Assembly: GCA_937870915.1 (NCBI GenBank)
Contig: CALMZQ010000003.1
Coordinates: 124,001 to 188,000 of the forward strand
Origin: an uncultured Ignavibacteria bacterium
GTDB taxonomy: Bacteria > Bacteroidota > Ignavibacteria > Kapaibacteriales > Kapaibacteriaceae
Direction: 5' to 3'
Length of the DNA stretch: 64,000 nucleotides
The notes below the pieces were generated by a model that was given only the letters and a program-made list of their open reading frames with translations, was not told the origin of the DNA and made no database searches. This document shows positions 29,377 through 35,844 of the stretch, piece after piece (the stretch's first letter is position 1; each line of letters starts with the position of its first letter). The translations under genes were made by a program, and so were the position numbers.

Positions 29377-32193
29377 ATGCGTCCACTCATCCTCATTGAC
29401 GGTATGTCGCTGGTATTCCGCGCGTACCATGCATTGCTCCGCACCGGCATGCAGTCGCCCTCCGGCGAACCAACATTTGCCGTATTCGCCTTTGCCAACA
29501 TCCTCACATCGCTGCTCGATAAGCATAACCCGGATGCGATAGCTGTGGTCTTCGACACTCCCGAACCCACCTTTCGGCATGTCCTCTACGACCAATACAA
29601 GGCCCACCGCGATGCGTTCCCGGAGGACCTCGTACCTCAACTGCTCCGCATCAAACAATTAGTTGGGCTGATGGGCTTGGAGATGGTAGAGATGCCGGGG
29701 TTTGAGGCCGACGATATTGTGGGCACTATCTGTAAGCGAGAAGGTGATGACGGCCACGAAATCCTTTGTGTTACGTCCGACAAGGACTACTTCCAGCTCG
29801 TGAACAACAACGTAAAGATCCTTCGACCAGGAAAGGACGTTGGGCAATACGACGTGATGGATGCAGCCAGCGTCAAGGTAAAGTTCGGCGTTGGCCCGGA
29901 ACACGTGATAGATGTTCTGGCACTTATTGGAGACAGCTCAGACAATGTCCCCGGTGTTAAGGGTGTTGGCGAAAAAACGGCCATCCCGCTCATTGAGCAG
30001 TTTGGATCTCTCGAAAAACTCTACGAAAATCTTGACGCCGTTGAAAGAGCCTCTGTGAAGAAGAAGCTCGAAGAGCACAGGGAAATGGCCTTCCTCTCCA
30101 AGACACTCGTAACGATCCACACAGACGTTCCGATCGATGCCAAACGAGTTGCTTTAGTTCGTAGACCAATGGACATTACAGGACTCGATACGTTCTGCGA
30201 AGAACTCGGCTTCCATACGTTGCGAAGGAAGTTCGCCAAGTATGGTCAGGGCAATGACGAAACGACGGAAGGACGAAGTGACACTGTGACGGAAGGACGA
30301 AGTGACACAGTGACGGAAGGACGAAATGACGGTTTAAAGAAGCTCAGTGACGTTGAGCACTCGTATATCTTGGTGGATACGCCAGGTGCACTTTCGGACA
30401 TGATGAATGGGTTGAAGGGGGCTACCCTACTCTCCGTCGATCTGGAGACAACAGGCTTGGATGCAATGCGGTGTGCGATTGTGGGAATAGCCCTGAGTGC
30501 TTCAGAGGGAACGGGCTATTACATCGATGTAGACGACTCGGCCATTGATAATGCCGGTTCACTCTTTGCTGACCATACTGAGCGGCATGGACTGCCCCTT
30601 GCAGACGTACTCTCCGTTGTGAAACCAATGTTGATCGATCCATTGATCGGCAAGTGTGGTCAGAACCTGAAGTACGACATGTTGATCTTAAAGAGGTATG
30701 GTATTGATGTTGCTCCCGTAGCATTTGACACAATGCTTGCGAGCTATGTGTTGGACCCGGATAGGCTTCACAATCTTGACGCCCTTTCCGAGCGATGGCT
30801 GCACTATGCTCCCATCTCGATCACCACCCTGATCGGTGAAAAGAAAGGACAACAGAAATCCATGCGCGACGTAGATGCTGCCCTCGTAGCGGAATACGCA
30901 GCAGAAGACGCAGACCTCGCATTGAAACTGACGAATCTGATGAAACCGGCACTTGAGAATGAAGGCCTGTTGGACTTTGCGCAGAAGGTTGAGTTTGCAT
31001 CGATCCCTGTCCTTGTGACGATGGAGAATAACGGCATCTGTATTGACACAAAGGCACTGGGTGGCTTGGGTGAGTTTATGCGGTCAGAAGCTGTGCGTCT
31101 TGAGGCAGAGATATGGAAGGAAGCCGGACAAGAGTTCACGATTGGTTCTCCTAAACAACTCGCAGAGGTATTGTTCGAGAACCTGATGCTTCCGGCTTCG
31201 AAGAAAACCAAGACCGGTTATTCTACAGACTCCAGTGTCCTTACGGAGTTGGCAGAGTCCTATCCGATTGCTCAAATGGTGCTAGACTACCGTCAAGTTG
31301 AGAAACTCCGCAGTACCTACGTGGAGTCTCTTCCACGTTTGATCAACCCGAACACGGGCAGGGTACACACTACATTTAACCAGACGGTTGCTGCAACTGG
31401 CAGACTCTCCTCTACAGATCCGAATCTCCAGAATATTCCGGTGAGAACGGAACTTGGGCAACAGATCCGCAAAGCCTTTGTTCCCCAGCATGCAGACCAT
31501 GTGATCCTTTCTGCAGACTATTCACAGATCGAACTACGTATTATGGCATCCTTCTCTAAGGATCCCAACCTCATCGCCGCTTTCGCTTCGGGAGCGGACA
31601 TCCATTCAGCAACTGCTGCCATTCTCTTTGACGTGCCGATCGACACTGTAACAGGGGATCAACGCAGGGTGGCAAAGACCGTAAACTTCGGTATCATGTA
31701 TGGTCAAGGGGCGTTTGGTCTCTCACAAGGCCTAGGGATACCTCGGGGCGAAGCCCAACAGATCATCGAGAACTACTTTGTGAAATATGCGGGTATTAAG
31801 AAGTACATCGATGAAACGGTAGCTGTCACTCGTGAGCGAGGCTATGCGTCCACGTTGCTTGGTCGCCGACGGTATTTCCCAACGATCAATGCAAGCAATC
31901 GCGGACTCCGCACTGCAGCCGAGCGTGCTGCCATCAACATGCCCATACAGGGGACGGCCGCGGACATGATCAAACTGGCCATGATCCGCGTTCATCAGCG
32001 AATGCAAAACGAAGGATTACGATCGATCCTGATGCTACAGGTGCATGATGAGCTCGTCTTTGAAGCACATGTTTCGGAGGTTGATGCGCTCACAAGGATA
32101 GCAAAGGAAGAGATGGAGCAAGCCCTGCCGCTTGAGAACGTACCTGTGGTTGTAGAGACTGGCAAGGGGGCATCGTGGTATGAAGCCCATTGA
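29377..32193 (+). CDS. polA: DNA polymerase I
   Basis: 5'-nuclease start 'LILIDGMSLVFRAYHAL', 3'-5' exo-like 'LLSVDLETTGLDAM', Pol A motifs 'ILSADYSQIELRIMA', 'RRVAKTVNFGIMYG', 'LQVHDELVFE'. Confidence 0.97.
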   Translation: MRPLILIDGMSLVFRAYHALLRTGMQSPSGEPTFAVFAFANILTSLLDKHNPDAIAVVFDTPEPTFRHVLYDQYKAHRDAFPEDLVPQLLRIKQLVGLMGLEMVEMPGFEADDIVGTICKREGDDGHEILCVTSDKDYFQLVNNNVKILRPGKDVGQYDVMDAASVKVKFGVGPEHVIDVLALIGDSSDNVPGVKGVGEKTAIPLIEQFGSLEKLYENLDAVERASVKKKLEEHREMAFLSKTLVTIHTDVPIDAKRVALVRRPMDITGLDTFCEELGFHTLRRKFAKYGQGNDETTEGRSDTVTEGRSDTVTEGRNDGLKKLSDVEHSYILVDTPGALSDMMNGLKGATLLSVDLETTGLDAMRCAIVGIALSASEGTGYYIDVDDSAIDNAGSLFADHTERHGLPLADVLSVVKPMLIDPLIGKCGQNLKYDMLILKRYGIDVAPVAFDTMLASYVLDPDRLHNLDALSERWLHYAPISITTLIGEKKGQQKSMRDVDAALVAEYAAEDADLALKLTNLMKPALENEGLLDFAQKVEFASIPVLVTMENNGICIDTKALGGLGEFMRSEAVRLEAEIWKEAGQEFTIGSPKQLAEVLFENLMLPASKKTKTGYSTDSSVLTELAESYPIAQMVLDYRQVEKLRSTYVESLPRLINPNTGRVHTTFNQTVAATGRLSSTDPNLQNIPVRTELGQQIRKAFVPQHADHVILSADYSQIELRIMASFSKDPNLIAAFASGADIHSATAAILFDVPIDTVTGDQRRVAKTVNFGIMYGQGAFGLSQGLGIPRGEAQQIIENYFVKYAGIKKYIDETVAVTRERGYASTLLGRRRYFPTINASNRGLRTAAERAAINMPIQGTAADMIKLAMIRVHQRMQNEGLRSILMLQVHDELVFEAHVSEVDALTRIAKEEMEQALPLENVPVVVETGKGASWYEAH
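30253..30332. repeat. Octamer tandem array inside polA, 10 units
   Basis: aatgacga aacgacgg aaggacga agtgacac tgtgacgg aaggacga agtgacac agtgacgg aaggacga aatgacgg; encodes TEGRSDTV repeats. Confidence 0.95.
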
Positions 32194-32211: not shown

Positions 32212-33681
32212 ATGTCTCTCGTTACCGCGCTTGTCCTAGGTCTCATTCAGGGACTCACGGAATTTATTCCTGTATCCAGTACGGCCCACCTGACGGTGGC
32301 AGCCGCTGCGTTTGGCGTGATAGACCCTGCTCATCCTGAACAGTGGACGTCTTTCATGGCAACGATTCAACTTGGAACGTTGGCAGCCGTGATCGCCTAC
32401 TTCCGCACAGACATCATCAAGACGAGCCGTTGCTGGCTTGTAGAAAACCTCGGATCTGGTAGGAAGGCATTCCGAGAGCAGAGTGCTGACTCTAGACTCG
32501 GCTGGTTCGTTATCGTTGGTACGTTGCCCATCGTCATTGTTGGGTTGGCATTCAAGGACGTCCTCGAGGGCTCACTCACAAAGGACCTGCACCTCATCGG
32601 CATCAGTCTTATTGGTGTGGCCGTTGTACTGTGGATAGCCGAGCGTCGAGCATCATTCACGCGCACAACTTCTGATCTTACGTTTGTTGATGCCCTAGCA
32701 GTTGGTGCTGCTCAATGTCTGGCACTCATTCCGGGAAGCTCGCGCAGTGGTACTACCATCATGGCTGCTCTCTTCCGTGGGATGACGCGTGAACATGCAG
32801 CGCGGTTTTCGTTCCTGCTCTCCATCCCTGCTGTCCTTGCAGCCGGAGTGTTGGAGTTTGCTCATGAAGTGAAGAATCTTACGCTAGAAAACGGCGGACT
32901 TCAACTTGCCGTAGCAACTATTGCAGCACTGGTGAGTGGATATTGGTCAATTGCCTTCCTCCTCAAATATCTCCGCACGCACAGCCTCAACGTTTTTATC
33001 GTCTATCGCATTGCCCTTGGAAGTGTATTGCTCTTTACGGGCTGCAGTACCGAAGAAAAAGTAGCGCCAGCGGCTATTGAACAACTCAAGCCCCCTCCGA
33101 GTGCTTCTGAAAAGACCGTTGTGTCCGATACCATTCCTGAGATCGTTGTTGTTGCCACTGATACCGTACTCGTAAAAACGAATATGGGGCTTATCGCAAT
33201 CGAACTCTATGGGAACGATGCACCGGCTACCGTGACAAATTTCTTGGGGTTGGTGTCAAAGAAGTTCTACGACGGAATCCAGTTTCACCGGGTTTCTCGC
33301 GGTTTTGTGATTCAGGCCGGCGACCCCAAGACGCGGGACGGCCAGGCACGGTCAGAATGGGGTAGAGGCGGAACAACGGCGTCAGGAAAGCCCCTTAAAG
33401 ACGAACTGGACCCGCTCCTCCCTACAGCTCGCAGGGGCTACATCAAGGGTGTTGTGGCAATGGCGCGCAAGCCCGTGGCAAACAGTGCAACGAGTCAATT
33501 TTTCATTTGCCTCGATAAAGCCACTACACTTCCGTACCAATACACGATTTTTGGCAACGTCATAGACGGGATGGATGTGGTGGACAAGATTGGGAGTATG
33601 GATGTGGAACCGGGTCCGCTCGGTGAAACGGACGGAATTCCGCGTACGTCCGTCATCATCAACAGTATCAAACGCAAATAA
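32212..33681 (+). CDS. Fusion of undecaprenyl-diphosphatase (UppP/BacA) with C-terminal cyclophilin-type peptidyl-prolyl isomerase
   Basis: 'LGLIQGLTEFIPVSSTAHLTVA', 'LIPGSSRSGTTIMAALFRGM' (UppP) and 'MGLIAIELYGNDAPATVTNFLGLV..FYDGIQFHRVSRGFVIQAGDP' (cyclophilin) in one ORF, junction 'VLLFTGCSTEEK'. Confidence 0.88.
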   Translation: MSLVTALVLGLIQGLTEFIPVSSTAHLTVAAAAFGVIDPAHPEQWTSFMATIQLGTLAAVIAYFRTDIIKTSRCWLVENLGSGRKAFREQSADSRLGWFVIVGTLPIVIVGLAFKDVLEGSLTKDLHLIGISLIGVAVVLWIAERRASFTRTTSDLTFVDALAVGAAQCLALIPGSSRSGTTIMAALFRGMTREHAARFSFLLSIPAVLAAGVLEFAHEVKNLTLENGGLQLAVATIAALVSGYWSIAFLLKYLRTHSLNVFIVYRIALGSVLLFTGCSTEEKVAPAAIEQLKPPPSASEKTVVSDTIPEIVVVATDTVLVKTNMGLIAIELYGNDAPATVTNFLGLVSKKFYDGIQFHRVSRGFVIQAGDPKTRDGQARSEWGRGGTTASGKPLKDELDPLLPTARRGYIKGVVAMARKPVANSATSQFFICLDKATTLPYQYTIFGNVIDGMDVVDKIGSMDVEPGPLGETDGIPRTSVIINSIKRK

Positions 33682-33707: not shown

Positions 33708-34298
33708 ATGCAGTTCCTCGCAAGTCTGACAGTTGTTGCCCTATTGATGGGCGTATTCGCCACAGCCGATGCATCGGCTCAAAAAGAAAAGAAGAAGGAA
33801 GCTAAGACCATGACGTACATCATAACCGTGAAGCAGGGAAACAAGGAACTCGGCAAGATCGAGCTCAAACTCTGGCCGGACGTTGCTCCTAAACATTGCG
33901 CGTTTTTTGATGCACGAGTTGCTGAAGGCTTCTACGATGGCCTGGCATTCCACCGCGTGATACCGAATTTCATGATCCAAGGCGGAGATCCAAACACAAA
34001 GGATCAACCACGCAACACATGGGGCAGTGGTGGATACAAGGACAAGGTTGAAGCCGAGTTCAACAGCAAGAAACACGTACGCGGAGTCCTTTCAGCCGCA
34101 CGCACGCAAGATCCGAACAGTTTCAGCGGTCAATTCTTCCTTTGTGTTGCAGACTCACCGTGGCTCGACAATCAATACACTGCCTTCGGAGAAGCAGTCA
34201 GTGGTATGGAAGTAGCAGACATCGTGGTAAACAATCCACGTGATGCCGGTGATTGTCCAATTGAGAAGATCACGTTCTCGATCACAAAGGGTAAGTGA
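33708..34298 (+). CDS. Secreted cyclophilin-type peptidyl-prolyl cis-trans isomerase
   Basis: Signal peptide; 'LKLWPDVAPKHCAFFDARVAEGFYDGLAFHRVIPNFMIQGGDPNT...SFSGQFFLCVADSPWLDNQYTAFGE'. Confidence 0.92.
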   Translation: MQFLASLTVVALLMGVFATADASAQKEKKKEAKTMTYIITVKQGNKELGKIELKLWPDVAPKHCAFFDARVAEGFYDGLAFHRVIPNFMIQGGDPNTKDQPRNTWGSGGYKDKVEAEFNSKKHVRGVLSAARTQDPNSFSGQFFLCVADSPWLDNQYTAFGEAVSGMEVADIVVNNPRDAGDCPIEKITFSITKGK

Positions 34299-35844
34299 GT
34301 TGACACACCTGCGGAAGATCCTGACGATCATCGTCGTCCTTGGCTTGGGTTTGTGCTCCCATGCATATGCCCAAGTGACGGACTCCACGTATCTGCCTCA
34401 GAACGTTGGACCCAACGTGAACGGTCAATACGATGACATCCTTCCTGTGATCTCACCGGATGGGCTTGCCTTGTACTTCTGTCGCAGCCATTCACCAGAA
34501 AACATTGGTGGCGGACGTCAGGATATTTGGCTGAGTGAGGTTCAGGCTGATGGAAGGTGGGGCCTAGCCAAGAACGTTGGTATTCCGCTTAATAATCGGG
34601 ACAACAACTATCTCTGCTCCATTACACCGGATGGCAACACCATCATCATCGGTGATGGATACAGTGCGGCTACAAACCGGCAGCGAAGTATAGCCATCTC
34701 ACATCGTACGGCCGATGGATGGTCTGTACCAAAACCAGTTGTTATCAAGAACTTCTATAATGACAACCGATTCGGTGAATATTCACTGGCAAACGATAAC
34801 CGAACACTGATTCTTGCCGTTGAACGCAAAGACTCACGTGGCGGTAAGGATCTCTACGTTTGTTTCCGTCAGGAAGACAGTTCATTCTCAGAGCCCGTGA
34901 ACATGGGCGTAACGGTTAACTCGCTCGGTCACGAAGCAACTCCGTTCATCGCCTCCGACAACTCTTCGCTCTACTTCGCTTCAGACGGTCAAGGGGGCTA
35001 TGGGGCTTTTGATGTGTTTGTCACACGTCGACTAGACTCTACCTGGACGAGCTGGACTGCACCGGAGAATCTCGGTCCAACAATCAATACGGCAGGATGG
35101 GACTTGTATTATACCATCCCTGCGGCTGGTGACTATGCCTACTACGTTTCATATAGCAACACGTTTGGTGCGGGAGATATCTTCCGTATCAAACTTCCGG
35201 AAAAGGTCCGACCGCGTCCTGTGGTGCTTATCTCTGGTCGAGTGCTGAACAAGAAGACCAACGAACCGGTAGAAGCAGACATCATCTACGAAATCCTTCC
35301 CGAAGGAAAAGAAGTTGGCCGCGCTCGTTCCACACCAACAACAGGTAACTATAAAATTGTGTTGCCTGCCGGTGGTAAGTATGGCTTCCGTGCTTCGGCA
35401 CCGAACTATCTCTCTGTGAATGACAATCTCGACCTTTCGGGACTTACACAATACACCGAGATCAAACGGGACTTGTTCTTAGTTCCGATAGAAGCAGGGA
35501 GTGTTGCGGAGCTGAACAACATCTTCTTCGACTACAAGAAGGCAACGTTACGTCCGGAGTCTTTCCCGGAGCTTAATCGCATCACAGACATGCTAACGGC
35601 AGCTCCTGCCATGACGATAGAGATTGGTGGACACACGGATGCAATTGCAAGCGACCAATACAATCAGGTTCTTTCCGAAGAGCGGGCCGAATCTGTTGTG
35701 ACATATATCGTCAAGCGTGGCAACATCGATAGGTCTCGCCTTGTGCCCAAGGGCTATGGAGAGCGCAAGCCGGTTGCAACGAATGACACTGAAGAAGGCA
35801 GACAACAGAACAGACGAGTTGAGATCACGATCCTCACAAAGTAG
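34240..35844 (+). CDS. PD40 propeller and OmpA-family peptidoglycan-binding protein; true start likely downstream of 34240 (for example TTG at 34300)
   Basis: 'VNGQYDDILPVISPDGLALYFCR' PD40; 'NNIFFDYKKATLRPESFPELNRI...IEIGGHTDAIASDQYN..LSEERAESVVTYIV' OmpA. Confidence 0.88.
   Translation: MMPVIVQLRRSRSRSQRVSELTHLRKILTIIVVLGLGLCSHAYAQVTDSTYLPQNVGPNVNGQYDDILPVISPDGLALYFCRSHSPENIGGGRQDIWLSEVQADGRWGLAKNVGIPLNNRDNNYLCSITPDGNTIIIGDGYSAATNRQRSIAISHRTADGWSVPKPVVIKNFYNDNRFGEYSLANDNRTLILAVERKDSRGGKDLYVCFRQEDSSFSEPVNMGVTVNSLGHEATPFIASDNSSLYFASDGQGGYGAFDVFVTRRLDSTWTSWTAPENLGPTINTAGWDLYYTIPAAGDYAYYVSYSNTFGAGDIFRIKLPEKVRPRPVVLISGRVLNKKTNEPVEADIIYEILPEGKEVGRARSTPTTGNYKIVLPAGGKYGFRASAPNYLSVNDNLDLSGLTQYTEIKRDLFLVPIEAGSVAELNNIFFDYKKATLRPESFPELNRITDMLTAAPAMTIEIGGHTDAIASDQYNQVLSEERAESVVTYIVKRGNIDRSRLVPKGYGERKPVATNDTEEGRQQNRRVEITILTK

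Follow-up and report, generated by a model that had tools for sequence, protein, structure and literature searches.

A uppP-cyclophilin gene fusion in Kapaibacteria with a possible lipoprotein signal peptide in the last UppP helix

Signal peptidases, polytopic precursors and the topology of UppP

The cytochrome b/c1 precursor FbcH of Bradyrhizobium joins a polytopic protein to a second protein and is split at an internal signal peptide, differing from the fusion described here in that signal peptidase I acts on a separate internal signal peptide and not on a shared catalytic helix. LtaS, a polytopic enzyme, is a substrate of signal peptidase I (SpsB), which cuts it beyond the transmembrane part (PMC11898559). 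The fusion resembles LtaS in that a signal peptidase cut, here predicted, follows the membrane helices of a polytopic enzyme with release of an outer domain, but in LtaS the peptidase is of type I, a single enzyme is processed rather than two unrelated proteins and there is no lipidation.

In both papers reporting crystal structures of E. coli BacA the C-terminus is periplasmic (PMC5852022, PMC5861054), with the arginine of the last helix (H10) lining the substrate pocket (PMC5852022). In keeping with this a beta-lactamase fusion made at the last residue of BacA was periplasmic, the hybrid being active and able to complement, whereas one placed at R251, ahead of the last helix, was cytoplasmic (PMC4641660). 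With its C-terminus in the periplasm the last helix of BacA runs from inside to outside and is thus oriented like a signal peptide. UppP/BacA is an undecaprenyl-diphosphatase, which recycles a lipid used in making the cell wall. The fused protein shares with the E. coli enzyme (5OON, 6CB2) the whole fold, the catalytic residues, the periplasmic C-terminus and the pocket-lining H10 arginine, but while stand-alone UppP/BacA proteins end after H10, in the fused protein H10 ends in a lipobox and the chain continues into a cyclophilin. With the separate lipoprotein cyclophilins of its relatives it has in common the cyclophilin domain, the lipobox cysteine, a flexible linker and the place adjoining uppP; unlike them, the fused cyclophilin has no signal peptide of its own and uses the last UppP helix instead. 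A search of the literature did not find a UppP-cyclophilin fusion described.

The fused reading frame and its distribution

The fused ORF lies on the forward strand at positions 32212-33681 of the window, the stretch of 64,000 nucleotides that was analysed, and is open from ATG to TAA over 489 aa, confirming the uninterrupted frame that had been called from the letters alone. It likewise holds up that one ORF carries UppP and a complete cyclophilin domain, with both Pfam domains far above their cut-offs. The BacA domain spans residues 6-271 (E 1.4e-77; PF02673 score 261 bits against a cut-off of 33.4; TIGR00753 score 220.8 against a cut-off of 217.5) and Pro_isomerase (PF00160) residues 319-483 (E 2.5e-40, 138.7 bits), corresponding to positions 33166-33660. 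The UppP/BacA part, taken up to the predicted cleavage site (residues 1-277, 32212-33042), is supported by the Pfam match, by alignment to 5oon and 6cb2 and by fold, and no second BacA gene was found in the genome.

The motifs EFIPVSSTAH and PGSSRSGTT are present as the sequence-only reading described them, within Q13xxxE17, P20VSST24, H26 and P174GSSRSGTT182. Across 20 aligned fused proteins Q13, E17, S23, H26, R178 and R266 are invariant, R266 aligning with R261, the H10 arginine of E. coli UppP, as are R360 and Q368 of the cyclophilin half, which we take to be the counterparts of the catalytic R55 and Q63 of CypA. In an AlphaFold2 model of the fused protein (mean pLDDT 77.9) the UppP half matched 5oon (Foldseek TM-score by target 0.83) and the cyclophilin half E. 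coli cyclophilin 1j2a (TM-score by target 0.77), with a match also to 2nul. By the Pfam and TIGR models together with its motifs the first half belongs to UppP/BacA, with C55-PP phosphatase activity predicted, while domain, fold and catalytic residues place the second half among the cyclophilin PPIases.

The gene upstream, polA (29377-32193, forward strand), ends 18 bases 5′ of the uppP start codon and is conserved in that position in most of the family loci fetched. It contains in frame a 24-bp tandem repeat of 2.8 copies, GACGGAAGGACGAAGTGACACAGT, at 30264-30330, the stretch of polA bearing it reading NDETTEGRSDTVTEGRSDTVTEGRND; copies with 2 mismatches recur at other places on this contig and on three further contigs, suggesting that this may be a dispersed short repeat that entered polA. 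Downstream on the same strand is cyp2 (33708-34298), the second, secreted cyclophilin of the sequence-only reading, now borne out as a separate gene by its Pro_isomerase match (E 3.4e-40). The cyp2 gene follows the fusion in most family loci, with the same gene order at many split loci too, and is duplicated in tandem in one genome (G005, locus L187). Directly 3′ of cyp2 is a gene for an OmpA and PD40 beta-propeller protein (34240-35844), whose listed GTG start overlaps cyp2 and whose true start is probably a TTG near 34300, ahead of the signal peptide.

A full-length fusion was found in 20 of 23 genomes of the same family, that is, in 19 besides the window's own, with both Pfam domains in every one, the proteins being 55-75% identical to that of the window. 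Fused members with named public records are Candidatus Kapaibacterium sp. ZLKRG19 and three Ignavibacteria MAGs, which places the window in the same lineage of uncultured bacteria (Bacteroidota, Kapaibacteria). The window comes from a draft assembly of 233 contigs, so that an assembly or sequencing error erasing a stop codon or frameshift between two genes has to be considered. The same junction is, however, present in 20 species-level genomes, one of which (G014) is a single contig; since independent genomes share the fusion, a sequencing or indel error is ruled out. Nor do all relatives have two separate genes, the outcome that the sequence-only reading had named as refuting the fusion. Among the 100 remaining genomes of the order no UppP open frame was long enough for the fusion, the longest among those listed being 383 aa, so that the fusion is specific to the family as far as sampled. 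In a sample of 396 genomes of the phylum the UppP frames listed from outside the family were likewise short with one exception (G144, 505 aa open), which was rejected as a fusion because its extra length is an upstream extension and its UppP end is normal.

A lipobox at the end of the last UppP helix

In the AlphaFold2 model a helix at residues 260-278 (32989-33045) stops at C278 (33043-33045) and is followed by a stretch of low confidence at residues 279-310 (pLDDT below 50) and then by the cyclophilin fold. This helix is H10, and the junction that it forms, YRIALGSVLLFTG followed by the cysteine, is as the sequence-only reading gave it. A lipobox, [LFVA][TAV][GAS]C, closes the last UppP helix in all 20 fused proteins, and a PROSITE-type lipobox pattern matches each of them exactly once, always at the end of H10. 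Lysine or arginine occurs at positions 255 and 266 in every fused protein, on the cytoplasmic side of the hydrophobic segment. A chance match was considered and rejected: among 51 ORFs of the window the pattern occurs once in each of 8, and just one other lies deep inside a protein, a copper P-type ATPase.

Between G270 and T323 the 20 fused proteins share no invariant column other than C278. When substitutions were mapped on a tree built without the junction, the C278 codon showed 4 silent changes and no amino-acid change, compared with a median of 9.5 changes in the columns of the predicted disordered, hypervariable tether (residues 279-312, 33046-33147). Glycine, alanine and serine are the residues that a lipobox allows at -1, and the 7 changes at this position were confined to these three. 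On these counts the lipobox is under selection. The function of UppP fails to explain the conservation of C278, because the stand-alone UppPs of the order, which have the usual UppP tail, carry other residues and no cysteine at the corresponding place. It is to be expected that a cysteine would be there at first if the fusion derives from a lipoprotein gene, and C278 might thus be a mere relic of the fusion event that is no longer lipidated or processed; this is highly improbable given a family that has diverged down to 55% identity while the cysteine took silent changes alone and -1 held to its three residues.

The signal peptide that a lipoprotein precursor normally has at its N-terminus is lacking, the lipobox being internal at residue 278, so that the fused protein, which seems to function as a lipoprotein precursor would, is not a standard one. 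Lipobox variants are known, and at position -3 the 20 proteins have leucine or valine in 12, phenylalanine in 6 and alanine in 2. The strict consensus at -3 is [LV] (PMC8048626), and the eight deviating proteins count against cleavage. Also counting against it is that LspA must reach a helix packed inside a polytopic enzyme. To our knowledge no case has been described in which LspA cleaves a polytopic protein beyond its final helix; a search of the literature for internal lipoboxes yielded no relevant paper, which is weak evidence given the limited collection searched.

An alternative is that the protein stays whole as a bifunctional membrane enzyme, UppP with a tethered periplasmic cyclophilin that is perhaps lipidated at C278 and left uncut. 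Such an enzyme would be in keeping with the functional C-terminal periplasmic fusions that E. coli BacA tolerates (PMC4641660), with the catalytic residues kept in both domains and with the wide adjacency of UppP and cyclophilin genes in the order. By itself, however, it has no need for glycine, alanine or serine followed by cysteine in 20 of 20 proteins beside a hypervariable linker, and we regard it as rather unlikely. Of the two possibilities originally raised, a bifunctional enzyme and a composite cleaved at the cysteine, the second is clearly favoured by the universal lipobox and by the homology of C278 to the lipobox cysteine of the separate cyclophilins adjoining uppP in three family members, with cleavage itself being inferred.

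The cyclophilin lipoprotein could also be made, in addition or mainly, from a start codon inside uppP, with the full-length fusion as a by-product. An ATG lies 18-21 residues before the cysteine in 12 of the 20 fused genes, from which a stand-alone signal peptide could be read. Position 259 is however methionine in 11, leucine in 8 and valine in 1, a mixture showing that no start is kept across the family, and neither the window ORF nor one other locus (L016) has an ATG, GTG or TTG anywhere from 10 to 32 residues ahead of the cysteine, making an internal start very unlikely.

Origin of the fusion and the proposed processing

In the three unfused family members (G012, G015 and G016) the TGA of uppP overlaps the ATG of the cyclophilin gene as ATGA, and the cyclophilin has its own signal peptide and lipobox (MRSRFGIVLVLATIAVMCG, MKHPMNYLYRSAIVAVAMVLCA and MKARTLVFALFLCTTIVA respectively, each followed by the cysteine). 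Of 37 loci examined in other families of the order, 18 have a related cyclophilin gene immediately after uppP, which is about half of the genomes sampled. The linker after the cysteine carries similar motifs whether or not the genes are fused, such as LKEMTPP and LREMSAPEP. On the strength of the overlapping gene pair and the similar linkers, and judging from the lengths, the fusion looks like a deletion of about 27 codons. A translationally coupled gene pair would thereby have been merged, the first part of H10 being joined to the end of the signal peptide. That unfused UppPs retain the usual tail argues that the unfused state is the older.

In a tree of UppP and cyclophilin 18 fused rows form one group while the other two (G017 and G013) adjoin the unfused G015 and G016, with a p-AU of 0.04 for one clade; in a tree of rpoB and polA a single fused clade was not rejected (p-AU 0.16). 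The fusion may have arisen once and been split again later, may have arisen two to three times in parallel, or may have been transferred. At five unfused loci (L046, L057, L059, L061 and L062) uppP and the cyclophilin gene share a frame and are separated by a single uppP stop codon, such that losing this stop would be enough to produce a fusion in which both helices are complete; an open version was seen at none of these loci.

The reading that we prefer, with a probability of roughly 0.8, is that the fused ORF encodes a precursor of two proteins, in which Lgt lipidates C278 and LspA cuts the chain so that UppP stays in the membrane and a lipoprotein PPIase is freed. A single lgt gene and a single lspA gene are present in the genome. 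Of the helical elements of UppP, the first nine would insert normally, and the tenth and last would cross from cytoplasm to periplasm and terminate at the lipobox. C278 would then receive diacylglycerol from Lgt, after which signal peptidase II (LspA) would cut between G277 and C278. UppP would keep H10 whole, with the pocket arginine in it, and end about where E. coli UppP does, at 11 residues past R266 compared with 12 past R261 in E. coli. The cyclophilin would become a periplasmic PPIase of the usual kind, lipidated at its N-terminus and carried on a flexible tether, and the two products would be equimolar. An aspartate at +2 occurs in none of the 20 fused proteins and by the E. coli sorting rule, which may not apply to Kapaibacteria, the lipoprotein would go to the outer membrane, thus parting from UppP.

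It is probable, a little less so than the cleavage scheme, that a single helix both takes part in substrate binding by UppP and acts as a type II signal peptide, one that is retained as an essential part of the working enzyme instead of being discarded, with LspA acting as a polyprotein-processing protease. If the precursor is cleaved, LspA would be able to process the end of a polytopic enzyme and a signal peptide could double as a functional catalytic helix. Fused ORFs of this kind would then be polyproteins rather than bifunctional enzymes, a warning for their annotation, and predictors that scan N-termini alone would miss lipoproteins such as the fused cyclophilin.
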